Shown here: piece after piece, positions 24,624 through 53,914 of the stretch | Layout: each line of letters starts with the position of its first letter | How positions within the stretch are numbered: the first letter of the stretch is position 1 | Source: Candidatus Didemnitutus sp. | GTDB lineage: Bacteria; Verrucomicrobiota; Verrucomicrobiia; Opitutales; Opitutaceae | DNA length: 64,000 bases | Reading direction: 5' to 3' | Assembly: GCA_023701285.1 (NCBI GenBank) | Contig: JAMPXH010000006.1 | Coordinates: 1 to 64,000 of the forward strand | Program-made: the position numbers and the translations under genes | The notes under the pieces: generated by a model | What the model saw: only the letters and a program-made list of their open reading frames with translations | What the model was told of the DNA's origin: nothing | Databases searched by the model: none

Positions 24624-25868
24624 TCAACCGACCGGCACCGCCGCGGTCGGCGGGCGTTCGCGGCGCACGCAGGTCCACAGAATCAGCACCGCGATCGGGT
24701 GCAACAGCGCCATCGCGGCGAAGACGAGCGTCGGTCCGAGCGAGGACATCATTTCACCCACGAAGGCGTTGAACACCACCGCGCCGGCCGCGCCGAAGCC
24801 ACCCGCGATGCCGAGCACGCTCGCCGCATTGCGCAACGGGAACGCCTCCGCGATCACCACACTCAGGCTGAAGAGCCAGCTCAGGCACGCCACGGCCACC
24901 AGGCTGAAGATCGCCAGCGTCGCCGCGGGATGCGGCAGATGCGGCGTGAGCACGCACAACGGCGCCAGGCACGCCACTGCCGTCAGCATGCGCTTCCGCG
25001 CGCGCAGTGGCTCCATCCCGCGCCGCACCATCGAGTCGGACCATGCCGCCGTGCCGATGCCGCCGAGGTCGGCCGCGAGGAACGGGATCCAGCCCACCAT
25101 GCCCACCTGCGCGAGGGTGAGCCCGGAGTTTTCCTGCAGGTAACCCGGCAGCCAGAACAGGCAGAAATACCACACCGGATCGCTGACGAAGCGGATGCAC
25201 AGGATCGCCCACAACGTGCGCGTGCCCCACAGTTGCCGCCACGTGAAGGCCGGCGTGGGCACGCCCGCGGCATCCGTCTGTCCCGTCTGCGCGGCGATCT
25301 CCGCGGGCGGATCGCGGTAGATCATGATCCAGAGCACCGCGACCACGATGCCCAGCAGGCCGGGCACGAGGAACGCCATGTGCCAGTTGAACGAAAGCGC
25401 CAGCCACGCCACCAGCGGCGGCGCGATGATGGCGCCGAACGTGCCGCCGGCCACGCACACGCTGTTCGCCGTCGCTCGCAGCGTGCCGGGGAACCACATC
25501 GTCACGGTGCGCAGCTGCGCCGGAAAGGCCGTGGGCTCCGCGACGCCGAGCATGCCGCGGAAAAACGAGAAGGCCGCGAGCGAGCGCGTGAGCCCCGCGC
25601 CGACGCACGCCACCGACCACGTCAACACGCCGGCAAACATCACGCGCTTCGCGCCGAACCGGTCCACCAGCCAGCCGGACACGGGATACATCAGCGCGTA
25701 GCAAACCGTGAACACGTTCACGAGCAGCGCGTAACCGCGGTCATCGAAACCGAATTCCCCCTTCAGCACCGGCTTCAGCACCGAGAGGATCTGCCGATCG
25801 ATGTAGTTGAGCACGATCGCGAAGAAGATGATGCCGAGAATGAGCCAGCGACGGCGGAGAGGATTCAT
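24624..25868 (-). CDS. MFS transporter
   Basis: 'MNPLRRRWLILGIIFFAIVLNYIDRQILSVLKPVLKGEFGFDDRGYALLVNVFTVCYALMYPVSGWLVDRFGAKRVM', ACS-like MFS. Confidence 0.88.
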   Translation of the reverse strand: MNPLRRRWLILGIIFFAIVLNYIDRQILSVLKPVLKGEFGFDDRGYALLVNVFTVCYALMYPVSGWLVDRFGAKRVMFAGVLTWSVACVGAGLTRSLAAFSFFRGMLGVAEPTAFPAQLRTVTMWFPGTLRATANSVCVAGGTFGAIIAPPLVAWLALSFNWHMAFLVPGLLGIVVAVLWIMIYRDPPAEIAAQTGQTDAAGVPTPAFTWRQLWGTRTLWAILCIRFVSDPVWYFCLFWLPGYLQENSGLTLAQVGMVGWIPFLAADLGGIGTAAWSDSMVRRGMEPLRARKRMLTAVACLAPLCVLTPHLPHPAATLAIFSLVAVACLSWLFSLSVVIAEAFPLRNAASVLGIAGGFGAAGAVVFNAFVGEMMSSLGPTLVFAAMALLHPIAVLILWTCVRRERPPTAAVPVG

Positions 25869-25909
25869 GAGAGCACGGGGAGGTAGGACGCGGCTTGCAG
25901 AGTGAAAAT

Positions 25910-27505
25910 TCAGGGAGAGAAACGCGGCAGCGCCGCGGCTTCGCCCGCGAGGCGGCGAAGCTCCGGCAGGACTCCACCGATCGGCAAAGCCGCGGAGGCG
26001 GGATCGCCCAGCGTGAAATAGAGCCGCCGATACAATGCGAACAGCCGCGCGTAGAACGCCGCCGCTTCCGGTCGCGGGTGCACGGTGCGGTAACCCGGCC
26101 CGAGCGCCTCCTGCGCCTCGCGCACCGAGCCGAACGCACCGACCGCCAGCAGCGCGAAGAGCGCGGAGCCGAGGCTCGTGATCTCGCTCGCCGGCACCAG
26201 CACGGGCATGTTGAAGACGTCGGCGTAGATCTGGTTCAGCACCGCATTGCGCTGCGGGATGCCGCCGCTGTTGATCACGCGCCGGATCGGCACGCCGTGC
26301 TCCGCCAGACGCTCCAGGACGATCCGCGTGTGCAGAGCCGTGCCCTCGATCGCCGCCAGCAATTCATCCTCCGCGCCGTGCGTGAGGTTCCAGCCCAGCG
26401 TGACGCCGCCGAGCGCCGGATTCGCCAACACGGTGCGATCGCCGTTGTCCCAGACGAGACGCAGCAGCCCGGTCTGGCCGGGACGCATCGCCCCGAGTCC
26501 CCGCGCCAGCTCCGCGACCGGACGTCCGCTGCGGCGTGCGATCGCATCGAAGATGTCTCCCGCCGCCGACAAACCTGCCTCGATGCCGGCCAGCCGCGGA
26601 TGGATCGAGCCCTCCACCACCCCGCACACGCCCGCGATGGGGGCGGGTTGCGGCACGACCGCCATGATGCACGTCGAGGTGCCGACCACGTTGACGATGT
26701 CGCCTTCCGTGATGCCGGCGCCGATGGCATCCCAATGCGCATCCAGCGCCGGGAACGGGATCGGGATGCCCGCGCGCAATCCCAGCCGCGCAGCCCACTC
26801 GGGCGAGAGCACGCCGGCCACCTGATCGGAGCGACCGTAGCGTCCCGCGAGCCAGCGATGGGCGCCAGCGAGCAGCGGATCGACCGCCGTCAGGAATTCC
26901 AGCGGCGGCAAGCCGCCGAGCTGTTCGCTCCACAGCCACTTGTGCCCCATCGCGCAGACGCCGCGCGGCAGGGCCGCCACGTCGCGGCAACCGATCAGCG
27001 TGGCGACGATCATGTCGCAGTTTTCCAGCACGGCGGCGAGGCGGTCGCGTCGGCCCGGATTCGCCCTCAGCCAATGGAGCAGCTTGGCAAAGCCCATCTC
27101 TGAGGAATACTCGCCGCCCGACCACGCCAGCGCCGGCAGGGCGAGGCGGCGCGCCGCCGCGGTGATCTCCGCGGCTTCGCGGTGCGCCCGATGATCGCAC
27201 CACAGATAATAATCGTCGAGCGGCTCAAGCCGCTCATCCACCGGAATGATCGTCGAACCGGTGGTCGCGACCGCGAGCGCGGCGACATCCCGGCCATCGA
27301 TACCCGCGGCCGCGAGCGCGGCGCGCATCGCCTGCTCGAGCGCCCGCAACTGATCCGCGTGCCGCTGCGTCGCGTGGTCGGGATCTTCCTTCTTGCGGCA
27401 AAGCGGATAACCCTCGGTGGCGGTGCCGAGACGGCCGCGCGCGTGGTCGACGAGGGAAACGCGGACGCTGAGGGTGCCAAAATCGATGCCGGCGACGATG
27501 GGCAT
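25910..27505 (-). CDS. FGGY-family carbohydrate kinase, ribulokinase-like
   Basis: 'MPIVAGIDFGTLSVRVSLVDHARGRLGTATEGYPLCRKKEDPDHATQRHADQLRALE...GGEYSSEMGFAKLLHWLR'. Confidence 0.85.
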   Translation of the reverse strand: MPIVAGIDFGTLSVRVSLVDHARGRLGTATEGYPLCRKKEDPDHATQRHADQLRALEQAMRAALAAAGIDGRDVAALAVATTGSTIIPVDERLEPLDDYYLWCDHRAHREAAEITAAARRLALPALAWSGGEYSSEMGFAKLLHWLRANPGRRDRLAAVLENCDMIVATLIGCRDVAALPRGVCAMGHKWLWSEQLGGLPPLEFLTAVDPLLAGAHRWLAGRYGRSDQVAGVLSPEWAARLGLRAGIPIPFPALDAHWDAIGAGITEGDIVNVVGTSTCIMAVVPQPAPIAGVCGVVEGSIHPRLAGIEAGLSAAGDIFDAIARRSGRPVAELARGLGAMRPGQTGLLRLVWDNGDRTVLANPALGGVTLGWNLTHGAEDELLAAIEGTALHTRIVLERLAEHGVPIRRVINSGGIPQRNAVLNQIYADVFNMPVLVPASEITSLGSALFALLAVGAFGSVREAQEALGPGYRTVHPRPEAAAFYARLFALYRRLYFTLGDPASAALPIGGVLPELRRLAGEAAALPRFSP

Positions 27506-27514
27506 GGCGGGAAG

Positions 27515-28222
27515 TCAGGGCGTGACGCCGTCGCGGGCGCGGGCCTGCCACGCCGCCACCTCGGCGCGCATCTCCTCGATCGCCGCGGGCATCTCCGCGG
27601 AGGACAGCATCGCGCGGGCGATCTCTTCGCCGAACAGGCGGCCGGCCTCGGTATCGGAAGGGAAGTGCGCACCGCCGAGCACCCGCGCCCACATCGTCTC
27701 GCGCGCCTGCGCGGCGAAATCGGCGGCGCGCTCAGGGAAAGCCGCGCTGAAAATCGCAGCCCAGACCGTGGCGTTGGTCGAGTGCCCGCTCGGATAGGAG
27801 GAGTTTTCGGGGACCTTCACGCAGGGGTGCACGCGCGCATCGAAGGCCGAGGGGCGCTCGCGCATCCACTTTTTCTTCAGGCCGGTGGCCACGCGGTTGG
27901 TCTCCTTCCACACGGCCTGCATGACCTCGGCCGTGCGCGGCAGGTTCTCGGCCGTGAACCACGGTCCCATGACCGCCGTGCCCATCAGAAAAGGCGTGTG
28001 CTGCTCGACGCGCCGGGCGCGGGCCACCTGCTCCGCCGTGCGATCCGCCTGCACTTGCAGCACCGTCGACAGATCGGCCAGGCCGGCGGGCGAATCCGCT
28101 GCCGGCGGCGGCGGAAGAGCCGCGCCCCAGTCGGCCCGGGACAAATCGAGAAAAGTGCGCGCCGGCGCCAGGGGCGACAGCAACCACAGCGCGACCAGCA
28201 GGGAGAGAAACAATCGGATCAT
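27515..28222 (-). CDS. PAP2-family (class A acid) phosphatase, exported
   Basis: Start MIRLFLSLLVALWLL at 28220-28222; KKKWMRERPSAFD, PSGHSTNATVWA and ARVLGGAHFPSD phosphatase motifs. Confidence 0.85.
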   Translation of the reverse strand: MIRLFLSLLVALWLLSPLAPARTFLDLSRADWGAALPPPPAADSPAGLADLSTVLQVQADRTAEQVARARRVEQHTPFLMGTAVMGPWFTAENLPRTAEVMQAVWKETNRVATGLKKKWMRERPSAFDARVHPCVKVPENSSYPSGHSTNATVWAAIFSAAFPERAADFAAQARETMWARVLGGAHFPSDTEAGRLFGEEIARAMLSSAEMPAAIEEMRAEVAAWQARARDGVTP

Positions 28223-28329
28223 GGGACGAAAAAAGGACGGCGCCGGAGCGCGCCGGGCCGGTTGCCCGCCGCGGACCGGACGGACCGCGCGGGCGGAGGG
28301 AACAATGAGAGGACGGCGGCCAAGGCGGA

Positions 28330-29733
28330 TCAAGCGCCAGCCTCGGCCGGGCGCAGGTAAGCGCCGCGCGCAAGGAGCTCGGCTTGGAGCTTCGCCACAT
28401 CGACCTGCGCGGGAGTCACACCGGTGTGCACGGCCTGCTTGGCGGCGCGTCCGGCCGCTTCGCCCATCGCCATGCATGTGGCCATGACGCGGATCGCGCC
28501 CATCGCCTCGTGCGTCGTCGAGATCGAGCGGCCGGCCACGAGAAGGTTTTGGATCTTCTGCGGCACGAGCGAGCGATACGGGATGTCGTAGCAGTCGCCG
28601 CACCAGATGAGCGTGCAGCCTTCGTCGCCCGGGCGGTGGATGTCGATCGGGTAGCTGGCGACGGCGATCGAGTCCTCGAACCGGCGGCAGCCGAGCACGT
28701 CCTCCTGCGTCATCGTGTATGCACCGACGATGCGGCGCGTCTCCCGGATGCCGAGGAACGGGGCGGTCTTGGTGAAGAAACATTTCTCGAAGCCCGGGAC
28801 GTAGTTCTTCAGGTAGACGAAGATGTCGTCGATCTGTTTGCGGGCTTCGATTTCACCGTCGGAAAGACTGCGCACGTCGGTGCCGTCCGTGCCGGCGACG
28901 CGCGTCATGTTGATCCAGACCTCGCCTTCGCGCAGGCCGGTGATGATGATCGTGCGTTCGTTCGGGATGTTGAGTTTACGCTCGGCGCGCGCCTTGGCGA
29001 TGAGCTCGCGCAGGCCGACGACGATGAACTGGTTGTTCTGGCCGAAATACTCGGCGGGGATGAAATCGGTGAGGTAGGTGCGCGTCTGCGTGGCGATGCT
29101 CATGCGCAACTTGTCCGTATCCACGCCGCCGATGCAGAACATGAGCGTGGGCGGCTGCATGCCGCCGGTCTCCTTGCTGCCTTTCTCGCAGGGGACGCCG
29201 GCGCGGTAGGCGACGTCGGCATCGCCGGTGCAATCGATCACGATCTTGCCGAGCACGGCCTCGCGGCCGCTCTTGCTCTCGATGACGATGCCGCGGATGG
29301 TGTCGCCGTCCATCACGACGCCGGCACAGAAGGCGTAGAAGGTGACGTCGACACCGGCCTCGAGCAGCATCTGGAGCGCGACACTCTTCACGGCCTCGGG
29401 CTCGACGAGCGTGATGCCCATGTGGAGCGGGCACCAACGGTGCTCGCTCGCGCCCTGCACGGCGCGGAGGCGGTCGATGAACTTCTGCGGGAGACCGTTG
29501 ATGATCTGGTTTTTCTTTTGCCCGAGGAAACCGAGGACCGGCAGGCCGATGGTCATGTTGCCGCCGACGAAGCTGCGGCTTTCGATGAGGCCGACCTTGA
29601 GGCCGTCCTCGGCCGCGGCGAGCGCGGCGGTGAGGCCGGAGGGGCCGCCGCCGACGACGAGCACATCATAGCTGGCGCGCACGGGCAGCGTGCGCGCGGG
29701 TTCCTGGATCGGAGGGAGATTGGACGCGGTCAT
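28330..29733 (-). CDS. FAD-dependent oxidoreductase
   Basis: Start MTASNLPPIQEPAR at 29731-29733; 'SYDVLVVGGGPSGLTAALAAAEDGLKVGLIESRSFVGGNMTIGLPVLGF'. Confidence 0.88.
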   Translation of the reverse strand: MTASNLPPIQEPARTLPVRASYDVLVVGGGPSGLTAALAAAEDGLKVGLIESRSFVGGNMTIGLPVLGFLGQKKNQIINGLPQKFIDRLRAVQGASEHRWCPLHMGITLVEPEAVKSVALQMLLEAGVDVTFYAFCAGVVMDGDTIRGIVIESKSGREAVLGKIVIDCTGDADVAYRAGVPCEKGSKETGGMQPPTLMFCIGGVDTDKLRMSIATQTRTYLTDFIPAEYFGQNNQFIVVGLRELIAKARAERKLNIPNERTIIITGLREGEVWINMTRVAGTDGTDVRSLSDGEIEARKQIDDIFVYLKNYVPGFEKCFFTKTAPFLGIRETRRIVGAYTMTQEDVLGCRRFEDSIAVASYPIDIHRPGDEGCTLIWCGDCYDIPYRSLVPQKIQNLLVAGRSISTTHEAMGAIRVMATCMAMGEAAGRAAKQAVHTGVTPAQVDVAKLQAELLARGAYLRPAEAGA

Positions 29734-29779
29734 GGGAGAGAAAAAAACGAGGATGAAAACGGATGGGTGCGCCGCGGGC

Positions 29780-30736
29780 TCAAGCGGTGAGCTCGACTTG
29801 GGCGGAGAGGAAATAGTGGTCGCTCGGGTAACGGCCATCGCGGCTGTCTTTCACGATGCGGGAGGCGAGCGTCTTCACGGGGCCGCGCGAAAAGATGAAA
29901 TCGATCCGCCCGGGCGGCTGGCGCGGGGCGAGCGAAGCGGGATAGGCCTCGCCGAGAAACCTGTGCGTCGTGAAACCCGGATCGCCGGGGCCGTGCACTT
30001 CCTCGTAGGTGTCCTTCCAGCCGCCGCTGCGGATGATCTCCATCAGGGGGTTGGCGAGGCGGGCGTTGAAGTCGCCGGCCAGCAGTTGCGGGAAAGTGTC
30101 CGCGTAGAGCGCGGCCTCGTCGACGATGAGGCGGGTCTGGCGTTCGCGGGCCGGCTGCGATTTGTGGTCGAGGTGCGTGGTGAGCACGCGGAACTCGCGG
30201 CCGGTGGCGCGCTCCTTGAGCCGCACCCAATTGACGTGGCGGGCGCGGGCGGTCTCCCACGACATGCTGCCGGGCAGATGCGGCGTCTCGGAAAGCCAGA
30301 AACCGCCGCACGTCACCGGCTCGAAGCGGTCGCAGGCGAACATGAGGACGTTCTTCGCGATGCCGTGGTAGCCGTCGAGTTTTCCGTCCATCTCCGGGCC
30401 TTCGAAACCGAAGAAGGCATAGTCGCGGAAACGCGCCTTCAGATCCTCGACCTGCCCCCAGAGCGTCTCCTGGTAGCAGACGATGTCGGGTTGCTGGGCG
30501 GCGATGACATCGAGGCAGAGTTCGCGGCGCTGGCTCCAGCCGATGCCCGCGGCCTCATCCTCGGGCAGAGCGACGCGGATGTTCGCCGTGAGGAGGTTGA
30601 TCCGTCCCGGCGGGAGAGCGGTCCGGGGCACAGCCGGCCGCGGTTGCGCCGGGGCGGCGGCCGGAGCCAGCGGGAGGAGGCTGGCGGCGGCGAGGCCCTT
30701 GACGAAGGTGCGACGGGAGACGGAGGTGGAAGGCAT
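29780..30736 (-). CDS. Tat-exported endonuclease/exonuclease/phosphatase (EEP) family hydrolase
   Basis: Tat-like 'SRRTFVKGLAAASLLPLA', 'LLTANIRV', 'YQETLWG', 'LAGDFNARL', 'YPSDHYFLSA'. Confidence 0.88.
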   Translation of the reverse strand: MPSTSVSRRTFVKGLAAASLLPLAPAAAPAQPRPAVPRTALPPGRINLLTANIRVALPEDEAAGIGWSQRRELCLDVIAAQQPDIVCYQETLWGQVEDLKARFRDYAFFGFEGPEMDGKLDGYHGIAKNVLMFACDRFEPVTCGGFWLSETPHLPGSMSWETARARHVNWVRLKERATGREFRVLTTHLDHKSQPARERQTRLIVDEAALYADTFPQLLAGDFNARLANPLMEIIRSGGWKDTYEEVHGPGDPGFTTHRFLGEAYPASLAPRQPPGRIDFIFSRGPVKTLASRIVKDSRDGRYPSDHYFLSAQVELTA

Positions 30737-30889
30737 GCGAAGGTGACCGGGAGGAGAGTTAAGCGGCGACCGGCGGGACGGCGAACAAATGCACCGGCGA
30801 AAACACCCTCGCGGCGAACGGGGCCGCGAGGGCGGGACAAGGCGATGAGGGGTCGGCGGCGTGCATCCCGGGCGCAGGCCGTGACCGGC

Positions 30890-33223
30890 TCAGCGGAACG
30901 AGAGCTCGTAGCCGAGGTTGACCTGGCGACCGAGGCCGAGCTTGCCGTTGGTGCCGATGTAGAGCTTGTCGGCGAGGTTGCTGCCGGTGAGGCGGAGCGA
31001 GTGGGTGTATTTCTTGTGGGTCTTCCAGCGATACTTCACGAACGCCCCGTAGTTGGCGAGCGAGGGAGACTCGACGAAGAGGTAGGTGATGTTGTTGCCG
31101 CTGCGCGAATAGTGCTGGTTCACGTAATCGCCGGTGTAGCGGACGCTGGCGCCCATGCTGAGGCCGCGGAGGCGGCCGGTGAAATTGTAGCGCAGCGACA
31201 CGGCGCTGGTCAGGCGCGGGACGAGCAGCTTGCGCTGCCCGCGCAGGTAGGAGTTGTTCGACTCGGTGATGATGGCGTCGTTGTAGCTGATGTTGCCGAG
31301 GAGGGTAAGGCTGTCCGTGACCTTCCAGTTGATGTCGCCCTCGACGCCTTTCACGCGCTCGGTGCCGATGCCGAGGTATTCGGGTTCGCCGTTGTCGATG
31401 CCCGTCTGGTAATCGGGATTCTCGGTGCCGATGTTGGTCTTCTCGATCTCGAAGAGCGAGATGGTGTAGCTGAGACGGCCGTCGGAGGACATGGACTTGA
31501 CGCCGACCTCGGTGCCCGAGCCGCGCTCGTTCGGAAGCAGGTCGGCGGTGCCGGCATCGTAGGTGGGGTTGCCGTTGAAGGAGGTGCTGCGGTTGGCGAA
31601 GAGCACGACGGAGTTGTTGCCGCGCACGCGCCAGTTCACGCCGTAACTGTAAGTGACGGCCTCGTCGTCGCCTTCGAGCCAGAGATCCTGCGTGTTGCTG
31701 GAGTCGACTTTGAACTCGGATTGGTCGTAGCGGACGTTGCCCATGAGCATGACGTTGCCGTTGGCGAGGGAGACGCGGTCGCTGACGGAGATGCCGCGGG
31801 TCACCACTTCCTCGTTTTCCTTCGAGACGCGGCGGCTCATGGTGTTCGGGTCGTAGGCACGCCAATCGGGATTGAACGGATCGAGGTAGCGGAAGCTGCG
31901 CGGCACGATGTTGACATCGGCTTCCTCGGCGGCCGTGAGGCGCCAGTAGGCGTCGCGGGTGCTCTCCTTGGCGTAGTCGGCGGAGAAGAGCAGGGAGTGA
32001 TCGAGCGATCCGGTGCGCACGCGGCCGACGAGATCGGTCTGGAAGGAGTAAGGCGAATCGATGTCCTGGACGCGGTTGCGCGGATAGATGTTCACGTAGC
32101 CGTAGCGGTTCTGCATCGGCAGCCAGGTGACGTCGTAGGTGGTCAGCAGATGCTGCCAGAAACTCTTGTCGTGCCAGCGATAGGAGAAGCGCTGCTTCCA
32201 GTTGCGGCTGAAGTTGTGCTCCAGCAGCACGCCGATGCCGTCATAGGCGCGGTCATACCACTCGTTCGGACCCATGCGGTTGTGGCCGATCTCCGCGAGC
32301 GGCCAGAAGTAGTCGCCGACGAAGCCGTTGTCGCGGTTCCAGTGGCCGGTGTTGGCGGCGGAGATGTTGGCATTGGTGACCAAGCGCGCGAACGACGCCG
32401 CGCGCCGGCCCTCAAGCCGCTGCGCTTCGTAGGTGACGTAGAGGCTGGTCTTCTCGGTGAACTTGTAGAGCAGGCCGAAGAACAGCGTGTCGTTGAGACT
32501 CTCGACGAAGTCGTAGTTGCCCTCGCGGTAATAGCGCTCGACCGAGGCCATGTAGAACAGCTTGTCCTTCACCACCGGACCGGAGGCGAGCAGGCTGCCG
32601 CGCAGGTAATCGTAGCTGCCGCCGACGGCGGAGATCTTGTATTGCGGCCGGTTCGTCGGGCGCTTGGAGACGTAGTTGATGACGCCGCCCGGCTGGGTCA
32701 TGCCGTAGAGCGTGGACATGGGGCCCTTGATCGCCTCGACCTGGTAGGTGTTGCCGATCTGCGGCGGCGGCGTGCGCTTGAAGCCGTCGCGCAGGATGGT
32801 GACCGGAAAGCCGCGCAACCGCGCCGCACTCGCCGTCGCGCTGATGGCGGCGTCCGACTCGTTCGGCTGTGCGCTGTAGCCGCTGAACATGGACATCTGG
32901 TCGCCCAGCGACAGCATCTCGAAATCCTCGATGAACTCCTGCGTCACGATCTGGATCTGATACGGCAGCTCGATCACGGGCGCCGCCGTGCGCGTGCCGC
33001 TCATCGCCTGCGTCGAGAACCATTCATCCTGCGCGCGCGTGGTCTCGACGCGGAACTCCTCGATCGTGATGACCTCATCCGTGGCCGCCTCCACGGCCGG
33101 CGGCGTTTGTCCGTGGGCCAGCCCGGCGAATGCCAGCGCCAGGCCCGCGGCGACAGGCGGAAGGATCGGTCGGAGGCCGGCCGCGAGGCCACCGGAATGG
33201 GAGTGCGGGGTGGGAGTAGGCAT
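30890..33223 (-). CDS. TonB-dependent receptor (siderophore-receptor-like)
   Basis: 'ITIEEFRVETTRAQDEWFSTQAMSGTRTAAPVIELPYQIQIVTQEFIEDF' plug; 'QPGGVINYVSKRPT'; C-term LGRQVNLGYELSFR. Confidence 0.93.
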   Translation of the reverse strand: MPTPTPHSHSGGLAAGLRPILPPVAAGLALAFAGLAHGQTPPAVEAATDEVITIEEFRVETTRAQDEWFSTQAMSGTRTAAPVIELPYQIQIVTQEFIEDFEMLSLGDQMSMFSGYSAQPNESDAAISATASAARLRGFPVTILRDGFKRTPPPQIGNTYQVEAIKGPMSTLYGMTQPGGVINYVSKRPTNRPQYKISAVGGSYDYLRGSLLASGPVVKDKLFYMASVERYYREGNYDFVESLNDTLFFGLLYKFTEKTSLYVTYEAQRLEGRRAASFARLVTNANISAANTGHWNRDNGFVGDYFWPLAEIGHNRMGPNEWYDRAYDGIGVLLEHNFSRNWKQRFSYRWHDKSFWQHLLTTYDVTWLPMQNRYGYVNIYPRNRVQDIDSPYSFQTDLVGRVRTGSLDHSLLFSADYAKESTRDAYWRLTAAEEADVNIVPRSFRYLDPFNPDWRAYDPNTMSRRVSKENEEVVTRGISVSDRVSLANGNVMLMGNVRYDQSEFKVDSSNTQDLWLEGDDEAVTYSYGVNWRVRGNNSVVLFANRSTSFNGNPTYDAGTADLLPNERGSGTEVGVKSMSSDGRLSYTISLFEIEKTNIGTENPDYQTGIDNGEPEYLGIGTERVKGVEGDINWKVTDSLTLLGNISYNDAIITESNNSYLRGQRKLLVPRLTSAVSLRYNFTGRLRGLSMGASVRYTGDYVNQHYSRSGNNITYLFVESPSLANYGAFVKYRWKTHKKYTHSLRLTGSNLADKLYIGTNGKLGLGRQVNLGYELSFR

Positions 33224-33234: not shown

Positions 33235-33246
33235 TAATATCTATTC
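33235..33246 (-). promoter_or_regulatory. SorC-regulon-like site S1 (TAATATCTATTC / GAATAGATATTA)
   Basis: Variant of GAATA-NN-TAT(G/T)C motif immediately upstream of TonB receptor start. Confidence 0.45.
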
Positions 33247-33360: not shown

Positions 33361-33372
33361 GAATATTTATTC
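33361..33372. promoter_or_regulatory. SorC-regulon-like site S2 (GAATATTTATTC, perfect dyad)
   Basis: GAATA-TT-TATTC perfect palindrome; ATATTTATTCCG is shared exactly with site S4. Confidence 0.6.
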
Positions 33373-41569: not shown

Positions 41570-41581
41570 GCATATTTATTC
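41570..41581 (-). promoter_or_regulatory. SorC-regulon-like site S3 (GCATATTTATTC)
   Basis: CGGCATATTTATTC is identical over 14 bp to site S4; about 42 bp upstream of the NHL-repeat gene start. Confidence 0.65.
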
Positions 41582-43815: not shown

Positions 43816-43827
43816 GCATAACTATTC
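43816..43827 (-). promoter_or_regulatory. SorC-regulon-like site S6 (GCATAACTATTC / GAATAGTTATGC)
   Basis: GAATA-GT-TATGC; same arms as S3/S4, about 43 bp upstream of the metallophosphoesterase start. Confidence 0.5.
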
Positions 43828-45942: not shown

Positions 45943-45954
45943 CGATAAATATGA
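45943..45954 (+). promoter_or_regulatory. SorC-regulon-like site S5 (CGATAAATATGA), overlapping a start codon
   Basis: GATAAATATGATGCC resembles GAATAAATATGCCG; overlaps ATG 45951. Confidence 0.4.
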
Positions 45955-47399
45955 TGCCCTCCTCGGTCCGCTCCTCCCTTGATCCCGCCCTTACCGGTGC
46001 GTCCGCGCCGGTCCCGGTCGGCGCGCCGCCTGCCGCGCGCCAGGGCGACACGCCGCGCCGGCTCAGCGTCCAGGAAGCACTGGCCTGCGCGCGCGAGACG
46101 CAGCGACTGGAAATCGGACCCGGGGCCATCGCCCATGTGCCGGCGGTCTTCGCCGCCCAATTCCCGCAGCGCACCGCCGTCGTCATCGCCGATCGCAACA
46201 CCTGGGCCATCGCGGGCGCCCGCGTGCACGCCGCACTCGGCGCCGCCGGCATCGCCGTGCACGAGTCCTTCATTTTCGACGACCCGGCGCTCTACGCGGA
46301 ATTCGGCTACGTCGAACGCCTCCTCGCCTTTCTCCAACCTCGCGACGTCATCCCCGTCGCGGTCGGCTCCGGCACGATCAACGATCTGGTCAAGCTTGCC
46401 GCGGGCCGCCTGACGCGCCCCTATCTCGCCGTCGCCACCGCGGCCTCGATGGACGGCTACACCGCGTTCGGCGCCTCGATCACCTTCCAAGGCGCGAAGC
46501 AGACCTTCGATTGCCCCGCGCCGCAGGCCGTGGTCGCGGACACCGAGGTGCTGCGCACGGCGCCGCGCGAAATGACCGCCGCGGGCTACGCGGACCTGCA
46601 GGCCAAGATCACCGCCGGCGCGGACTGGATCGTCGCGGACGCACTGGCCGTCGAACCCATCGACTGGCGCGCTTGGGACATCGTGCAAGGCGGCCTCGCC
46701 GTCGCGCTCGCCGATCCGGCCGGGGCCCGCGAGGGCAAGACCGAGGCCATCGCGCCGCTCACGGAAGGTCTCATGCTGGGCGGCTTCGCGATGCAGTGGA
46801 CGAAGTCGAGCCGGCCCGCCTCCGGCGCCGAGCATCAATTCAGCCATCTCTGGGACATGGAGCATCACGTGCACGGCGACGCCGCGCCCGCGCACGGCTT
46901 CAAGGTCGGCATCGCCACGCTCGCCATCACCTCGCTCTACGAATACCTGCTGCGCCAGCCCATCGAGAGCCTCGATGTCGCGGCCTGCGCCGAACGCTGG
47001 CCCGAACCCGCCGCGATGGAGGAGCAGGTCCGCCGCCTGTTCGCGACCAGCGATTTCCTCGCGACGGCGCTCACCGAGACGCGCGCCAAGCATCCCTCGC
47101 GGGCCGCGCTGCGCAGCCAGTTGGAATTGTTGCAGCGCAATTGGCCCGGGCTGCGCCGGCGCCTGCAGGCGCAACTGGTGCCGTTCGGCGAGCTCAAGTC
47201 CCGGCTCCGCGCGGTCGGCGCGCCGGCCGAACCCGAGGAGATCGGCATCAGCCGCGCGCGCCTGCGCGACAGCTTTGTCCGCGCGCTACACATCCGCCGC
47301 CGCTTCACCGTGCTGGATTTCGCCGCACGCACGGGCCTGCTCGAACCCGCCCTCCGCTCGCTCTTCGGCCCGGGAGGCATGTGGGCCGTCCACGCCTGA
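45951..47399 (+). CDS. sn-glycerol-1-phosphate dehydrogenase (AraM/EgsA-like)
   Basis: True start MMPSSVRSSLDP; 'VIPVAVGSGTINDLVKLAAGRLTRPYLAVATAASMDGYTAFGASITFQGAKQTF', 'ASGAEHQFSHLWDMEHHVHGDAAPAHGFKVGIA'. Confidence 0.88.
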   Translation: MMPSSVRSSLDPALTGASAPVPVGAPPAARQGDTPRRLSVQEALACARETQRLEIGPGAIAHVPAVFAAQFPQRTAVVIADRNTWAIAGARVHAALGAAGIAVHESFIFDDPALYAEFGYVERLLAFLQPRDVIPVAVGSGTINDLVKLAAGRLTRPYLAVATAASMDGYTAFGASITFQGAKQTFDCPAPQAVVADTEVLRTAPREMTAAGYADLQAKITAGADWIVADALAVEPIDWRAWDIVQGGLAVALADPAGAREGKTEAIAPLTEGLMLGGFAMQWTKSSRPASGAEHQFSHLWDMEHHVHGDAAPAHGFKVGIATLAITSLYEYLLRQPIESLDVAACAERWPEPAAMEEQVRRLFATSDFLATALTETRAKHPSRAALRSQLELLQRNWPGLRRRLQAQLVPFGELKSRLRAVGAPAEPEEIGISRARLRDSFVRALHIRRRFTVLDFAARTGLLEPALRSLFGPGGMWAVHA

Positions 47400-47403: not shown

Positions 47404-48714
47404 ATGGCCCCGCCGACCCAGGACCCGCGCCACGCTGCACCCGGCGGCTCCGCCGCGACGGATGTCCTGTTCCGGCGGTGGCAGCGCCGCACCCTGATCG
47501 CCTCGATCGTCGGCTACGCGGGCTATTATTTCGTCCGCAAGAATCTCAGCCTCGCCATGCCGGCGATGGAGCAGGATCTCGGCATCACGAAGTCCGACCT
47601 CGGCCTGTTCCTGACGCTGCACGGGCTGCTCTACGGCCTCTCGAAATTCGCCAACGGTTTCCTCGGCGACCGCGCCAACGCCCGCCACTTCATGGTCGCG
47701 GGCCTGCTGCTCTCCGCAGTCGCGAACGTCGTCTTCGGCTTCAGTTCCGCGGTGTTCCTGCTCGGGTTCGTCTGGGTGGTGAACGGCTGGGTGCAAGGCA
47801 TGGGCTTCCCGCCCTGCGCGCGGCTGATGACGCACTGGTTCCACCCGCGCGAACTCGCCACGAAGATGTCCATCTGGAACACCTCGCACTCGATCGGCGC
47901 CGCGCTCGTCGTGGTGCTGTGCGGCTATCTCGTGACCTTCGGCTGGCGCTGGTGCTTCTTCGGCCCGGCGCTGGTCGCCAGCGCGATCGCCGCGTATCTG
48001 TGGTTCGCGCTGCGCGACACGCCGAGTTCGGTCGGCTTGCCCGAGATCCGCGTCGCCACGGCCGATGGCGCTTCGCACGACGCGCCGCCGGCGGATTTCC
48101 GGCGCTTCGTGCGCCAGCAGGTTTTTGCCAATCCTTACATCTGGGTTTTGGCGTTCGCCAATTTCTTCGTCTACACGTTCCGCTACGGCGTCCTCGACTG
48201 GGGCCCGACACTGCTCACGCAGTGGAAGGGCGTCTCGCTGCAGCACGCGGGCTGGATGGTGGCGGCGTTCGAGGTCGCGGGCATCGTCGGCATGCTCGTC
48301 ACCGGCTGGCTGACCGACCGGGTGTTCGGCGGCCGCGGGGCGCGCATGTGCCTTTGCGCGATGGCACTCGCCGGCGTGTGCCTGCTGGCGTTCTGGAAAC
48401 TCCACACCGGCTCGACCGCGCTCTCGACGCTCCTGCTCGGCGGCGCCGGGTTCTTCATCTACGGCCCGCAGGCGCTGATCGGCATCACCGCAGCCAACCT
48501 CGCCACCAAGCACGCGGCGGGCACGGCCGTCGGCTTCACGGGCCTGTTCGGCTACCTGAGCACGATCGTCTCCGGCTGGGGCCTCGGCACCTTGGTGCAA
48601 TACCACGGCTGGAACGTCGCGCTGGCCGGCCTCGTCGGCGTCGCCGCAGTCGGCACGGCGCTATTCGCCCTCGCCTGGCGGGCCAAGGCCCACGGCTACG
48701 GCACCCTCTCCTGA
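47404..48714 (+). CDS. MFS transporter, organophosphate:phosphate antiporter type (GlpT/UhpC-like)
   Basis: 'IASIVGYAGYYFVRKNLSLAMPAMEQDLGITKSDLGLFLTLHGLLYGLSKFANGFLGDRANARHFMVAGL...RYGVLDWGPTLLTQWKG'. Confidence 0.9.
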   Translation: MAPPTQDPRHAAPGGSAATDVLFRRWQRRTLIASIVGYAGYYFVRKNLSLAMPAMEQDLGITKSDLGLFLTLHGLLYGLSKFANGFLGDRANARHFMVAGLLLSAVANVVFGFSSAVFLLGFVWVVNGWVQGMGFPPCARLMTHWFHPRELATKMSIWNTSHSIGAALVVVLCGYLVTFGWRWCFFGPALVASAIAAYLWFALRDTPSSVGLPEIRVATADGASHDAPPADFRRFVRQQVFANPYIWVLAFANFFVYTFRYGVLDWGPTLLTQWKGVSLQHAGWMVAAFEVAGIVGMLVTGWLTDRVFGGRGARMCLCAMALAGVCLLAFWKLHTGSTALSTLLLGGAGFFIYGPQALIGITAANLATKHAAGTAVGFTGLFGYLSTIVSGWGLGTLVQYHGWNVALAGLVGVAAVGTALFALAWRAKAHGYGTLS

Positions 48715-48724
48715 GCTTCTTTCC

Positions 48725-49609
48725 ATGTCCGCCTCCGCTTCCCCTTCCGCCTCCCTCACCTCCTTGCTCACGCCCGCGCTGGCCGAGCGGCTCCGCCGCA
48801 TCCGCCATGTCGCGCTCGACATGGACGGCACGCTCTACAAGGGCGGCACGCTCTTCCCGTGCACGCCGCCGTTCCTCGCGCAGATGCGGCAGGCGGGCAT
48901 CGGCTACACGTTCCTGACGAACAACCCGTCGAAAAGCATCGCCGACTACGTGGCGCATCTCGGACGCCTGGGCCTCGCCGCCCAACCCGGCGATCTCTAC
49001 ACCACCGTGCAGGCGACCCTCGAGCACCTGCGCACCCACCGGCCCGGGGCGCGACACCTCTTCGTGCTCGGCACCGCGAGCATGTTGGCGGAGTTCACCG
49101 CGGCCGGTTACACGCTCGCCACCGACTCGCCCGAAGATGAACCCGACGCCGTGGTCGTCGGCTTCGACCTCACGCTCACCTACCCGCGCGCCTGCCGCGC
49201 CGCGTGGTGGATCAGCCGCGGAAAACCCTTCATCGCCACCAACCCCGACCGCGTCTGCCCCACGGATCAACCGACCGTGCTCATCGACTGCGGCTCGATC
49301 TGCGCCATGATCGAGCAGGCGAGCGGCCGCGCCCCCGACATTGTGCTCGGCAAACCCGACCCGACGATGCTCGCCGGCATCCTCCGCCACCACCGCCTCG
49401 AGCCCGGACAGGTCGCGATGGTCGGCGACCGCATCTACACCGACATGCTCATGGCGCGCCGCGCCGGTGCGCTCGGCGTGCTCGTGCTCAGCGGCGAAGC
49501 CACCGCGGAGGATGCCCGCCAAGCCAACCCGCCGCCCGACCTCGTCGTGCCGAGCCTCGCCGAGTTCGGCGCCCTGCTCGCCCAAGCCCGCCAAGGCGCC
49601 TCCGCCTGA
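48725..49609 (+). CDS. HAD-IIA (NagD/AraL-type) phosphatase
   Basis: 'IRHVALDMDGTLYKGGTLFPCTPPFLAQMRQAGIGYTFLTNNPSKS', 'KPDPTMLAGILRHHRLEPGQVAMVGDRIYTDMLMARRAGA'. Confidence 0.9.
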   Translation: MSASASPSASLTSLLTPALAERLRRIRHVALDMDGTLYKGGTLFPCTPPFLAQMRQAGIGYTFLTNNPSKSIADYVAHLGRLGLAAQPGDLYTTVQATLEHLRTHRPGARHLFVLGTASMLAEFTAAGYTLATDSPEDEPDAVVVGFDLTLTYPRACRAAWWISRGKPFIATNPDRVCPTDQPTVLIDCGSICAMIEQASGRAPDIVLGKPDPTMLAGILRHHRLEPGQVAMVGDRIYTDMLMARRAGALGVLVLSGEATAEDARQANPPPDLVVPSLAEFGALLAQARQGASA

Positions 49610-49647
49610 AACGACTCACCCGCTCACCTGTTTCCCTCCCTTTTGCC

Positions 49648-51126
49648 ATGAAAGCCTCAACTCCTCGTCAACGTTCAGAAGTATTGCAGCGCCTCGCTGC
49701 CGAGCCGCTCGACCTGCTGGTCGTCGGTGGCGGCATCGTCGGCAGCGGCATCGCCCGCGACGCCGCCATGCGGGGCCTGCGCACGGGGCTCGTCGACCGC
49801 TACGACTTCGCCTTCGGCACCAGCAGCCGCTCCAGCCGCCTGCTCCACGGCGGCCTGCGCTACCTCGAGCAGGGCCGCGTCGGCCTCGTGCGCGAGGCGA
49901 GCCTCGAGAAGAAGGTCGTCCGCCACATCGCGCCGCACCTCGCCCAGCCGCTCGGCTTCGTCTTCCCCGCCTACCAACGCGCCGGGCGCCCGCTCTGGCA
50001 GTTGCGCATCGGCGTGAAACTCTACGACCTGCTCTGCAGCGGCCGGAATTTCCAACCCTCGCGCGGCTTCAACACCCGGGAGACGCTCGGCATGCTCCCG
50101 CAACTCAGCCCCGAAGGCCTGCTCGGCGCCGTCCGCTACTCGGACGCGCTGACCAATGACGCCCGCCTCGTGATCGACACGATCCGCTCCGCCGCCCTCC
50201 ACGGCGCCGACGTGGCCAACCGCGTGGAATTCATCACCGCCGAACGGCACGGCGACACCTGGGTCTGCCAGCTGCGCGACCACCTCACCGCGACGCCGTT
50301 CATGGTCCGCACGCGCACCATCATCAACGCCACCGGCCCGTGGGCCCCGCAGATCCCGCACAGCACCGTGAAGCTGCGCCTCAGCAAGGGCATCCACCTC
50401 GTCGTCGAGCGCTCGCGCCTCCCTGTCGGCGAGGACGCCGTCGTCATCACCGAGGGAAAGCGCATCCTCTTCGTCATCCCCTGGGGCGAGCGCGTCATCG
50501 TCGGCACGACCGACACCGACTACACCGCGCGCCCCGAGGACGTCGCGGTGAACCCCGAGGACATCGCCTATGTGCTGCGCACGGTGAACGAGGCCTTCCC
50601 GTCCCTGCGGCTCGGCCGCGCCGACATCCTCAGTTCCTGGGCCGGGTTGCGCGCGCTCATCGCCAACCCCGACGGCACGCCCTCCGACATCTCGCGCGCC
50701 CACGAGATCCGCCTCAACGAGCCGGGCTGGTGGGATGTCTCCGGCGGCAAGCTCACGACCTACCGCCTCATGGCCGAGCAAACCGTCGACCGCATCCTCC
50801 GCTACCTCGGCCGCCCGAAGGGCGTGTGCCGCACCGCCGCCGAGCCGCTCCTGCCGACCGAGGCCGACGCGTGCTACAGCAACATCGTGCCGCCCGACTT
50901 CTCGCGCGACGCCGTCGTCCACTACGTCCAGCACGAGTGGGCCCTCTCGCTCACCGACGTGTTCGTGCGCCGCACCTCGTGGCATTACTACCACCGCGAC
51001 GCCGCCGCGAAGGCCGAACAGGTCGCCACCTGGATGGCCGAGCTCTGCGGCTGGTCCGACCAACGCCGCCGCGAGGAACTTGCCGCGTATCACCGCGCCA
51101 CCGAGATCGTCGCCAGCGCCGCCTGA
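49648..51126 (+). CDS. glpD: Glycerol-3-phosphate dehydrogenase
   Basis: 'LLVVGGGIVGSGIARDAAMRGLRTGLVDRYDFAFGTSSRSSRLLHGGLRYLEQGRVGLVREASLEKKVVRHIAPHL...GTTDTDY...GGKLTTYRLMAEQTVD'. Confidence 0.93.
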   Translation: MKASTPRQRSEVLQRLAAEPLDLLVVGGGIVGSGIARDAAMRGLRTGLVDRYDFAFGTSSRSSRLLHGGLRYLEQGRVGLVREASLEKKVVRHIAPHLAQPLGFVFPAYQRAGRPLWQLRIGVKLYDLLCSGRNFQPSRGFNTRETLGMLPQLSPEGLLGAVRYSDALTNDARLVIDTIRSAALHGADVANRVEFITAERHGDTWVCQLRDHLTATPFMVRTRTIINATGPWAPQIPHSTVKLRLSKGIHLVVERSRLPVGEDAVVITEGKRILFVIPWGERVIVGTTDTDYTARPEDVAVNPEDIAYVLRTVNEAFPSLRLGRADILSSWAGLRALIANPDGTPSDISRAHEIRLNEPGWWDVSGGKLTTYRLMAEQTVDRILRYLGRPKGVCRTAAEPLLPTEADACYSNIVPPDFSRDAVVHYVQHEWALSLTDVFVRRTSWHYYHRDAAAKAEQVATWMAELCGWSDQRRREELAAYHRATEIVASAA

Positions 51127-51170
51127 CCGGCACCTTGCCCGCCCACCCACCGCCGCGAACGCCACCGCCC

Positions 51171-52832
51171 ATGAAAACCTCCGCCCTCCTCTGTGTGCTC
51201 GCGCTCGGCGCCGCACCGGCGTTCGCGGCGACTCCGCCCGCTGCACCTCCGCGCCTCGCCGTCGTCATCACCGTCGACCAGCTGCGTGCCGATTACCTGA
51301 CCCGCTTCCGGCCCTTCTTCGGGCCGGACGGCTTCAACCGCCTGCTCGCCGGCGGCGCGGTCTTCACGGATGCGCACTACCGCCACTCCGTCACGCTCAC
51401 CGCGCCGGGCCATGCGTCGATCCTCTCCGGCGTCTTCGCCGAGACGCACGGCGTCATCGCCAACTCGTGGCTCGATCGCAGCAGCTGGCAGGTGATCAAC
51501 TCCGTCGAAGACACCGCATCGCCGCTCGTGGGCACGACGGCGCCGTATTCGCCGGGCAACATCATCGCCCGCAAGGCCGGACGTTCGCCGAAGAACTTCC
51601 GCGCCACCACGGTCGGCGATCAGCTGAAGCTGCGCCGGGGCGCGACCTCGCGCGTCGTCTCCGTCTCGAACAAGGACCGCGCCGCGATCCTGCTCGGCGG
51701 CAAACTCGCCGACCAAGCCTATTGGGTGGAGAAGGGCGTCTTCGTGACCTCGCGCCATTACCGCGAGCAGCTCCCGGATTGGGCCGCCGCCTTCAACGAG
51801 CGCCACGCCGCCGCCAAGCTCCACGGCGCCACCTGGGAGCGCCTGCTCGACGCCTCGCTCTACGACGCCGTGCAGGGCCCCGACGACGCCCCGGGCGAGA
51901 GCGATGCCCACGGTCTCGCGCGAACCTTCCCGAAGACGGTCGACGGCGGCCGCCGCGAACTCTCGAACCGCTTCTTCAACGCCTTCGACGTGACGCCATT
52001 CGCCACCGAGATGCTCGGCGCCTTCGCCGAGCTCGCCCTGCAGGAGGAGAAACTCGGCCACCATGCCACCACCGATCTCTTCTGCGTCAGCTTCTCGCAG
52101 ATCGACACCGCCGGCCACGCCTACGGCCCCGACAGCCACGAGATCATGGACTCGATGGTCCGCCTCGACCGCGTCCTCGCGCGTTTGCTCGCTGCGCTCG
52201 ATCGCGCGGTCGGCCTTTCGAATTGCCTGATCGTGCTCACCGCCGACCACGGCGTGTGCCCGCTGCCGGAGCGCGTGCAAGCCGCACATCCCGGCCTGCC
52301 GGCGGCCCGCTATTCCCTCACGGAGCTGGAAGGCGCCGTGCAGCGCACGCTCGACGCCACCTTCGGCCCCCTGCCCGACGGCGAGATCTGGTTCACGCGC
52401 AACAACACGAATTTTCACCTGCGCGCCTCCGCGCTGAAGCTGAAACAACTCGCCGCCGCGGACGTCGCCCGGGTCGTGCGCGATGCGCTGCTCCAGACCG
52501 AGCCGGTCGCACGGGCCTTCACGGCGGAGGAGATCCGCGCCTTCCCCGCCGAGGGCGATTCGCTCGAGGCCATGGTCCGCCGCAGCCATCACCCGGAGAT
52601 CAGCGGCGAGGTTTTCTACACGACGAAACCGTATTACTTCGTCCGCGAGGACGGCGCCGCCCACGGCAGCCCGCACAATTACGACACGCACGTGCCGCTC
52701 ATCTGGTTCGGCGCCGGCATCGCGCCCGGGGAGCATCCCCGCCGCGTCGGCATCGACGACATCGCCCCGACCTTGTCCGCTCTCCTGCAAATCCCGGCAC
52801 CGCCCGAAGCCCGCGGACGCCGGCTCTTCTGA
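51171..52832 (+). CDS. Alkaline phosphatase family protein (PafA-like), exported
   Basis: 'LAVVITVDQLRADYLTRFRPFFGPDGFNRLLAGGAVFTDAHYRHSVTLTAPGHASILSGVFAETHGVIANSWLDR', 'SFSQIDTAGHAYGPDSHEIMD', 'VLTADHGVCPLPE'. Confidence 0.92.
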   Translation: MKTSALLCVLALGAAPAFAATPPAAPPRLAVVITVDQLRADYLTRFRPFFGPDGFNRLLAGGAVFTDAHYRHSVTLTAPGHASILSGVFAETHGVIANSWLDRSSWQVINSVEDTASPLVGTTAPYSPGNIIARKAGRSPKNFRATTVGDQLKLRRGATSRVVSVSNKDRAAILLGGKLADQAYWVEKGVFVTSRHYREQLPDWAAAFNERHAAAKLHGATWERLLDASLYDAVQGPDDAPGESDAHGLARTFPKTVDGGRRELSNRFFNAFDVTPFATEMLGAFAELALQEEKLGHHATTDLFCVSFSQIDTAGHAYGPDSHEIMDSMVRLDRVLARLLAALDRAVGLSNCLIVLTADHGVCPLPERVQAAHPGLPAARYSLTELEGAVQRTLDATFGPLPDGEIWFTRNNTNFHLRASALKLKQLAAADVARVVRDALLQTEPVARAFTAEEIRAFPAEGDSLEAMVRRSHHPEISGEVFYTTKPYYFVREDGAAHGSPHNYDTHVPLIWFGAGIAPGEHPRRVGIDDIAPTLSALLQIPAPPEARGRRLF

Positions 52833-52882
52833 GCGCGCCTTCACCCCGCGCACCGGCCGCGCTCCCGTCCCCTTCGGTTACC

Positions 52883-53914
52883 ATGTCGCACGCTGCTCCC
52901 GCTCTCGCTTCGCGCTCGCGGCGCCGTTTCCTCCGGCAACTCGGGGCGCTCGCCGGACTGCCTCTGTTGTCGCGTCCGGCCTGGGCGGCCGACCCCGCCC
53001 CGATCCGGCCGCGCCCGCTGCGCTCGCCCGATTCGCTCAAGATCGTCACCGCCAACCTGCGCGAAACGAAGGACGAGGATTACGAAACCGGCAACGGTTG
53101 GACGCAGCGCCGCGAACTCTGCCGCGACATCCTGCTCGCGCAACACGCCCAGCTCTTCTGCTTCCAGGAGTGCCGTCTCGCGCAGCTCGCCTACTTCAAG
53201 CGCTTCTTCGCGGACCACGAGTGGTTCGGCCTCGCCAACCTGCGTCCCGGCAAGACCGAGGAGCCTTCCAACGCGATCCTCTACTCGACCGCACGCTTCG
53301 CCCGCATCGACGCCGGCGGCTTCTGGCTGTCGGAGACGCCGCAGGTGCGCAGCTCGCGCTCGTGGGACACCGCCGCCCCGCGCTTCGTCAATTGGGTGCG
53401 CCTGCGCGACCGCCGCGCCGACCGCGAACTGCTCGTGTGGAACACGCACCTCGACTACCACAGTCGCATCGCGCGCGAGAATTCCTGCCTCCTGCTCGCC
53501 CAAGCCGCGCAGAAATTCCCCGCCGACCTGCCGCAACTCCTCACCGGCGACATGAACGCCCGCGGCACGCCGATGCGCACGCGTCGCATCATTGAGAACG
53601 GCAAGACCGTCCGCACCGAACCGATCGAAAACCCGCCGCCGCGCTCGCGCGCAATCCAGAACCTCCTTGATGGCGGCTGGATCGACACCTACGCCGAACG
53701 CCACGGCGACGGCGAACCGGGCCTGACCGCGCATCAATTCCGCGGCGAGGAATTCGCCGCCACCGAACAGGGTCAGGCGCGCACCAAGATCGACTACATC
53801 TTCCGCCGCGGCCCGCTGGAGACGCTCGACGCCGAAATCATCCGCGATCACCGGGCCGGGCGCTACCCGAGCGACCACTACTTCGTCTCCGCGGAGCTGG
53901 CCTACCGGACGTAG
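52883..53914 (+). CDS. Tat-exported EEP-family hydrolase, paralog of 29780-30736 product
   Basis: 'SRSRRRFLRQLGALAGLPLLS', 'KIVTANLRETKDEDYETGNGWTQRRELCRDILLAQ', 'FQECRLAQ', 'LTGDMNARGTP', 'YPSDHYFVSAEL'. Confidence 0.88.
   Translation: MSHAAPALASRSRRRFLRQLGALAGLPLLSRPAWAADPAPIRPRPLRSPDSLKIVTANLRETKDEDYETGNGWTQRRELCRDILLAQHAQLFCFQECRLAQLAYFKRFFADHEWFGLANLRPGKTEEPSNAILYSTARFARIDAGGFWLSETPQVRSSRSWDTAAPRFVNWVRLRDRRADRELLVWNTHLDYHSRIARENSCLLLAQAAQKFPADLPQLLTGDMNARGTPMRTRRIIENGKTVRTEPIENPPPRSRAIQNLLDGGWIDTYAERHGDGEPGLTAHQFRGEEFAATEQGQARTKIDYIFRRGPLETLDAEIIRDHRAGRYPSDHYFVSAELAYRT

Follow-up and report, generated by a model that had tools for sequence, protein, structure and literature searches.

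A predicted SorC regulon for polyol-phosphate esters, with a likely catabolic glycerol-1-phosphate dehydrogenase, in a bacterium of the Opitutaceae

The "archaeal" stereochemistry of lipids is set by glycerol-1-phosphate dehydrogenase (G1PDH), an enzyme usually regarded as opening the pathway by which archaea make their lipids. What, then, is a member of this family doing among exported phosphohydrolases in a bacterium of the Opitutaceae (Candidatus Didemnitutus sp., GCA_023701285.1; host genome 4.02 Mb)? The question is raised by a locus at positions 24624-53914 of the window, by which we mean the whole stretch analysed, 64,000 nucleotides of contig JAMPXH010000006.1. We propose, with a probability of roughly 0.68, that it is a SorC-controlled regulon for polyol-phosphate esters, resembling a polysaccharide utilization locus (PUL) and predicted to serve the harvest, import and catabolism of glycerol phosphate; substrates, enantiomer, direction of reaction and inducer are all predictions here. 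Exported hydrolases, namely a glycerophosphodiester phosphodiesterase (GDPD), endonuclease/exonuclease/phosphatase-family (EEP), calcineurin-type (MPE), PafA-like and PAP2 enzymes, would liberate glycerol phosphate together with a free sugar or polyol, larger pieces would enter through a TonB-dependent receptor, and a GlpT-like transporter of the major facilitator superfamily (MFS) would import glycerol phosphate. GlpD would oxidise sn-glycerol-3-phosphate (sn-G3P) and G1PDH sn-glycerol-1-phosphate (sn-G1P), both yielding dihydroxyacetone phosphate (DHAP), while a HAD phosphatase would strip phosphate from excess or side-product polyol phosphates. A second MFS transporter, an FAD-dependent oxidoreductase (FADox) and a ribulokinase would import and catabolise the remaining moiety, which is probably a pentitol or a pentulose. 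SorC would act through the palindrome CTGAATA-NN-TATTCAG, one site of which is at its own start codon, and the inducer is likely to be an intracellular phosphorylated product.

The strongest argument for treating the two arms of the locus, one on each strand, as belonging together is the distribution of this operator. Its core is the 12-bp palindrome GNATA-NN-TATTC, and GNATANNTATTC, allowing up to one mismatch, has 13 matches in the window against 1.2 expected (both strands counted for a palindrome). Across the 4.02-Mb genome the exact palindrome has five sites. Four lie in the promoters of the TonB receptor, NHL, MPE2 and SorC genes of this window (Table 1), and a reversed control pattern has zero sites in the whole genome. 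The fifth copy (C23:10525-10536; L120 10525-10536), beside which no related gene was recognised, may be a chance occurrence.

The operator is retained in relatives. Of the 22 regions upstream of SorC genes, one from the window and 21 from relatives, 14 contain it, compared with a mean of 0.02 in Markov resamples (shuffles); with the sites at the SorC start left out, because they also encode conserved residues, so that only non-coding sites count, the figure is 7/22. Relatives also carry it in front of TonB receptors that are divergent from SorC. Outside the SorC locus it lies ~80-90 bp before the MFS gene of an MFS-FADox operon (G042:C6, G035:C138); it stands upstream of a run of TonB receptor, sulfatase, FADox, sulfatase and MPE genes in G035:C54 and flanks TonB-GDPD runs in G042:C43 and G035:C102. 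In lower-GC genomes there are further matches with no tie to genes of this kind, and many of them are of the GGATA type. Because the operator lies before SorC, TonB receptors and the distant MFS-FADox operon, both arms look like one predicted SorC regulon, and we infer that SorC binds the palindrome. The first-pass annotation of the window had noted a shared operator-like motif and had joined TonB uptake, exported phosphoesterases and glycerophosphate catabolism in one SorC regulon; the motif proves to be a real palindrome, and the regulon is supported by it at the level of sequence. Uptake, hydrolases and catabolism under one regulator, as expected of a PUL, are likewise predicted from the shared operator; of a SusC/SusD pair the window holds the TonB receptor only, and SusCD occur in Bacteroidota relatives.

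Conserved co-localisation in relatives had been set in advance as one point on which the idea should stand or fall, and it was found among 80 loci of Verrucomicrobiota and Bacteroidota picked by G1PDH sequence alone. At 33 of 74 testable loci G1PDH is preceded, <700 bp away and on its own strand, by a GDPD, and at 54/66 a HAD gene follows ≤3.5 kb downstream; of all 80, a GlpT-like gene is present in 66, a GDPD in 39 and GlpD in 23. Since such genomes carry ~4.3 GDPDs each (165 in 38 genomes), chance would be expected to produce well under one adjacent GDPD-G1PDH pair. The loci do not count as independent observations; mapped on the G1PDH tree, the labels change 8 times for GDPD, 4 for SorC and 4 for RbtT, a ribitol/arabitol-family transporter discussed below, each fewer than when shuffled. 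The window groups on this tree with Opitutus WM.026 (L079) and L040, with modest support. Bacteroidota loci have a DeoR regulator in the place of SorC, and part of them are PUL-like, with SusC/SusD, EEP, a calcineurin-type esterase and another GDPD clade. The clearest, from the Prolixibacteraceae, carries on one strand G1PDH, GlpT, HAD, an Ig protein, SusC, SusD, a sulfatase/phosphodiesterase, a calcineurin esterase and RbtT, with a GDPD directly upstream of G1PDH.

G1PDH is itself patchy among relatives (5/29 genomes searched). One genome has three copies (L166, G014:C7:14000-33999), one of which adjoins an AraD-type class II aldolase and tandem GDPDs. At L008 (6674-8897) two SorC paralogues in tandem lead into GDPD-G1PDH, and a GH106 rhamnosidase lies close by on the opposite strand. 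A Pedobacter-centred clade (L049, L057, L058, L062, L069, L072, L074, L076) keeps G1PDH-GlpT-HAD without GDPD or GlpD, and has a PRK/uridine-kinase-like gene directly or almost directly upstream.

Three genes within the span, the ACS-family MFS, the AraB-type ribulokinase and the PF12831 FAD oxidoreductase, had been passed over in the first-pass annotation, and all three prove relevant. The pairing of FADox with the ACS MFS is conserved in both phyla (59-90% and 55-80% identity, respectively), and around the 12 FADox-MFS places examined, selected regardless of hydrolases, EEP1/EEP2, MPE2-type esterases, PAP2, ribulokinase and TonB/SusCD recur. MPE2 homologues scoring 568-624 bits lie beside the pair in L130, L131 and L132, and a PafA-type phosphodiesterase is near it in L123. 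In Opitutus WM.026 the module adjoins the SorC-G1PDH operon with a SorC site between them, and in Maribellus CM-23 MFS, FADox and esterases precede G1PDH-HAD-ribulokinase. From these recurring hydrolases and joint loci we conclude that the left arm (MFS, FADox, ribulokinase) genuinely belongs to the system, although in most cases its genes lie elsewhere in the genome. The predicted structure of FADox (mean pLDDT 75.6), searched with Foldseek, returned generic FAD-oxidoreductase folds only and no substrate clue; its sequence matched the PDB within the FAD-binding region alone, and that of MPE2 had no PDB match. In L125 (430-12154, minus strand) MFS-EEP1-FADox directly adjoins a rhamnose-type pathway (RhaT, an aldolase-SDR fusion, an isomerase-like protein, LutB), and rhamnosidases are found near other loci too; rhamnose may be a component of some substrates.

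The recurrence of ribulokinase and RbtT in relatives suggests that the second product of the system is a pentitol. At L087 G1PDH-HAD has beside it an L-ribulokinase that exceeds both NCBIfam cut-offs, and at L059 an RbtT/DalT/CsbX transporter that exceeds its own. Of 30 genomes searched, 11 have a single RbtT copy, and in nine of these 11 it is located at the G1PDH locus. The window's own genome has no RbtT, and there the ACS MFS may take its role. In three genomes with the AraB-type kinase (G061, G037, G056) no class-II aldolase/AraD match was found at E ≤ 1e-20, assembly gaps being possible, so the kinase product there may be D-ribulose-5-phosphate. The earlier suggestion that phospholipid headgroups and lipoteichoic acid are the source of the glycerol phosphate stands as one option, but it had overlooked the pentitol-like product that the ribulokinase and the ribitol-type transporters of relatives indicate.

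Several points weigh against our proposal. G1PDH scores 162 bits against the NCBIfam equivalog NF002022, below the cut-off of 413; it remains a member of the AraM/EgsA family but need not be equivalent to the modelled form, and given this score another polyol phosphate is a possible substrate. RbtT is present and GlpT absent at L050, L051 and L084, so that G1PDH is not always supplied by imported glycerol phosphate. The MFS-FADox and G1PDH operons stand apart in most genomes, EEP and MPE genes are near G1PDH at 6/57 and 7/57 loci and in few clades only, and the regular pairing of HAD with G1PDH is left without explanation by the model. One could also envision the G1PDH homologue as a dehydrogenase for some other polyol (phosphate), for example a pentitol phosphate, in a pentitol pathway for which glycerol phosphate is one of several inputs. 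RbtT and the AraB-type kinase beside G1PDH-HAD, at times without GlpT, would fit such a pathway, as would the sub-cut-off score and the sharing of one Bacillus subtilis operon by AraB, AraL (HAD) and AraM. However, G1PDH carries the RPASGxEH signature and metal ligands of true G1PDHs: the Asp-His-His ligands of the Fe-ADH_2 family (D215, H295, H315) are kept in 76/76 relatives, and SRPASGxEH, common to archaeal G1PDH, in 75/76 (aligned with 4rgq and 9h4x). This, together with the frequency of GlpT, GDPD and GlpD among the 80 loci, makes the pentitol pathway an unlikely substitute for a glycerol-phosphate one.

The other enzymes of the glycerol-phosphate branch are similarly conserved. The window GlpT has the aligned residues R45, K80, H165, R269 and D274 (E. 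coli numbering), and in its relatives both arginines are kept in 61/61, the histidine in 60/61 and the aspartate in 59/61, position 80 being K or R; with 323 bits against the equivalog TIGR00712, whose cut-off is 633, it is GlpT-like by score. The HAD-IIA protein has glycerol-3-phosphate phosphatases among its PDB kin (4i9f, 7po7), and its catalytic residues are conserved among relatives. The catalytic H, R, E, E, D and H of GDPD are kept in 33-34 of 34 neighbours' GDPDs. Characterised GlpQ-type GDPDs release sn-G3P only and do not cut intact lipoteichoic acid (PMC7086022), so GDPD alone does not account for release of G1P, for which the other esterases, or a GDPD with another specificity, would be required.

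As for possible sources, sn-G1P is present in lipoteichoic acid and in the phosphatidylglycerol headgroup (PMC7086022), as well as in archaeal lipids (PMC7852524, PMC12718374). Glycerol phosphate and a pentitol together are the make-up of teichoic acids, which leads to a tentative and rather improbable extension of our proposal, in which the locus would serve utilization of teichoic acid or a similar glycerol/ribitol-phosphate polymer through exported teichoicase-like esterases and TonB/SusCD import of fragments. Under such circumstances GlpT, GlpD and G1PDH would process the G3P of wall polymers and the G1P of lipoteichoic acid, and MFS/RbtT, FADox and ribulokinase would process ribitol; the DNRLRE/CBM-like domains and TonB/SusCD import fit a polymer substrate. 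If this were so, G1PDH would serve catabolism, not lipid synthesis, widely among bacteria, and the locus would be one route by which Gram-negative bacteria eat Gram-positive wall polymers.

A biosynthetic G1PDH would instead run from DHAP to sn-G1P and supply archaeal-type or heptaprenyl ether lipids, like AraM and PcrB of B. subtilis. The family does include archaeal EgsA and Bacillus AraM, and bacteria of the Fibrobacteres-Chlorobi-Bacteroidetes (FCB) group have been proposed as makers of such lipids (PMC7852524). Yet in 40 operon-bearing genomes we found no convincing geranylgeranylglyceryl or heptaprenylglyceryl phosphate synthase (GGGPS/PcrB, PF01884), but partial matches of ~40-50 positions only, of which one, of 51 positions in G037, passed the cut-off; the same search recovers the enzyme in B. 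subtilis, Thermotoga and archaea. Ether-lipid synthesis by the operon is thus unlikely and, the operon partners being catabolic, we regard a biosynthetic G1PDH as very improbable. A catabolic step from G1P to DHAP is the simplest reading and the enzyme is likely catabolic, in agreement with the setting first envisaged for it. The "araM" of Bacteroides thetaiotaomicron (PMC5061871, PMC4666351) was considered as a precedent and rejected, since there it is an unrelated mutarotase. The occurrence of G1PDH in bacteria feeds arguments about the lipid divide, and an operon conserved in two phyla, which joins the enzyme to GDPD, GlpT and GlpD in genomes lacking a convincing GGGPS, offers a testable catabolic alternative. 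Two unrelated neighbours, one a glp-type operon and the other an ordinary locus for phosphate scavenging or sugar use, might also adjoin by chance. The separation of the MFS-FADox module from G1PDH in most genomes speaks for this, but both arms here share a rare palindrome with the detached module of other genomes, and the modules are reunited in Opitutus WM.026 and Maribellus CM-23; we regard chance adjacency as scarcely credible.

All genes named in the first-pass annotation are present by profile matches at this span (Table 1). The plus-strand arm is a single eight-gene run of SorC, GDPD, G1PDH, GlpT-like MFS, HAD-IIA, GlpD, PafA-like and EEP2 genes with intergenic gaps of -4, 52, 4, 10, 38, 44 and 50 bp, followed 449 bp on by CstA; at the position of the PafA-like gene the longest open frame is a shadow of the coding one. 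The minus-strand arm reads MPE2, NHL/Ig protein, PEP-CTERM protein, exported adhesin-like protein, MPE1 and TonB receptor, and then EEP1, FADox, PAP2, ribulokinase and ACS-family MFS. The export signals claimed for the hydrolases were seen by eye on all seven, Sec-like on GDPD, PafA, PAP2, MPE1 and MPE2 and Tat-like on EEP1 and EEP2. GlpK is encoded elsewhere in the host genome, so free glycerol should be usable too. Outside the locus, a separate minus-strand cluster at 3923-15092, with a TonB receptor, a BNR-repeat (sialidase-like) protein, a GlcNAc 2-epimerase family protein, a glucosamine-6-phosphate isomerase/PIG-L fusion and an HpcH/HpaI aldolase, looks like an amino-sugar utilization locus, and a region at 56400-60000, just past CstA, where GC falls to 54-56% (64-72% elsewhere) and only short frames occur, is likely a foreign island.

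Table 1. Genes and operator sites of the locus, in window coordinates
Feature	Position	Strand	Evidence and remarks
SorC-family transcriptional regulator	43986..44978	+	PF04198 1.5e-63; orthologues 53-75% identical precede G1PDH in Verrucomicrobiota
GDPD, exported glycerophosphodiester phosphodiesterase	44975..45898	+	PF03009 1.2e-16; 4-bp overlap with SorC stop
G1PDH, glycerol-1-phosphate dehydrogenase family (AraM/EgsA)	45951..47399	+	PF13685 3.8e-35; PDB 9h4x G1PDH 6e-44
GlpT/UhpC-type organophosphate antiporter (MFS)	47404..48714	+	TIGR00881 359 bits, GlpT 323 bits; PDB 1pw4 GlpT 9.5e-80
HAD-IIA phosphatase (NagD/AraL/PGP-type)	48725..49609	+	TIGR01460 125.7 bits, above cut-off 100.2
GlpD, FAD glycerol-3-phosphate dehydrogenase	49648..51126	+	PF01266, PF16901; NF008899 334 bits, slightly below cut-off 360
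PafA-like exported phosphatase/phosphodiesterase	51171..52832	+	PF01663 1.7e-34; NF042991 399.5 bits, below cut-off 650
EEP2, Tat-exported EEP-family hydrolase	52883..53914	+	PF03372 5.7e-10; Tat-like N-terminus
MPE2, calcineurin-like phosphoesterase with DNRLRE (CBM96-like) domain	41620..43773	-	PF00149, PF24517
Secreted NHL/Ig-domain protein	38163..41528	-	PF01436, PF13927; operator ~42 bp upstream
PEP-CTERM exported protein	37174..38097	-	NF038129 weak
Exported repeat/adhesin-like protein, no function assigned	36092..37057	-	Open frame, signal peptide MLRLRSASFRFVFRCAW...; start estimated from that Met
MPE1, calcineurin-like phosphoesterase with DNRLRE domain	33546..36092	-	PF00149 2.5e-10, PF24517
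TonB-dependent receptor	30890..33223	-	PF00593, PF07715
EEP1, Tat-exported EEP-family phosphatase	29780..30736	-	PF03372 2.8e-17; PDB kin 4c1r mannosyl-6-phosphatase 1.1e-21
FADox, cytoplasmic FAD-dependent oxidoreductase	28330..29733	-	PF12831 1.8e-127
PAP2 acid phosphatase, exported	27515..28222	-	PF01569 4.5e-14; kin beside FADox in L123, L124, L130
AraB-type ribulokinase (FGGY)	25910..27505	-	NF003154 490.9 bits, above cut-off 428; PDB 3qdk ribulokinase 7e-61
ACS-family MFS transporter	24624..25868	-	PF07690; TIGR00893 216 bits
Degenerate operator copy TAATATCTATTC	33235..33246		12 bp upstream of TonB receptor
Operator GAATATTTATTC	33361..33372		Upstream of TonB receptor
Operator GCATATTTATTC	41570..41581		Upstream of NHL gene
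Operator GCATAACTATTC	43816..43827		In divergent MPE2/SorC promoter
Operator GCATATTTATTC	43991..44002		Over SorC codons 2-6; position kept in many orthologues

Compared with known systems, the locus resembles the glp regulon (GlpQ/GlpT/GlpD) of E. coli and B. subtilis in its exported GDPD, GlpT antiporter and GlpD leading to DHAP, but adds G1PDH, HAD, a TonB receptor and six further exported phosphoesterases, and SorC replaces GlpR. With Bacteroidota PULs it shares outer-membrane TonB import, exported hydrolases and a dedicated regulator, and its Bacteroidota counterparts have SusC and SusD, whereas its hydrolases are phosphoesterases rather than glycosidases and no SusD is present in the window. 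The B. subtilis araABDLMNPQ operon, containing AraB, AraL and AraM, likewise unites ribulokinase, HAD-IIA phosphatase and G1PDH; GDPD, GlpT, GlpD and the phosphoesterases are absent from it, and the role of AraL and AraM in arabinose use is unclear. Polyol operons of the eryABCD type combine a SorC regulator, a GlpD-like dehydrogenase and an FGGY kinase, as does our locus, in which GlpD is nearer to a genuine G3P dehydrogenase and the other arm supplies the kinase, one of AraB type. Bacterial use of G1P as a carbon source has a parallel in Phaeobacter sp. MED193, with GpxB/UgpB uptake; uptake there is by periplasmic binding-protein transporters, with no phosphoester PUL, and the passages of that report consulted here name no G1P-oxidising catabolic enzyme (PMC12718374). 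Coleman et al. listed G1PDH in FCB bacteria for Fibrobacteres and Cloacimonetes only (PMC6431249), and the Bacteroidota clade appears to have lain outside their sample. We found no description of such a locus in the open-access literature searched, which, being open access only, is weak evidence of absence. The parts belong to known families; what is new is the inclusion of the left arm (MFS, FADox, ribulokinase) in the system and the link of RbtT to G1PDH (9/11), and in its combination of parts and their regulation the locus represents a new form of PUL-like and glp systems.

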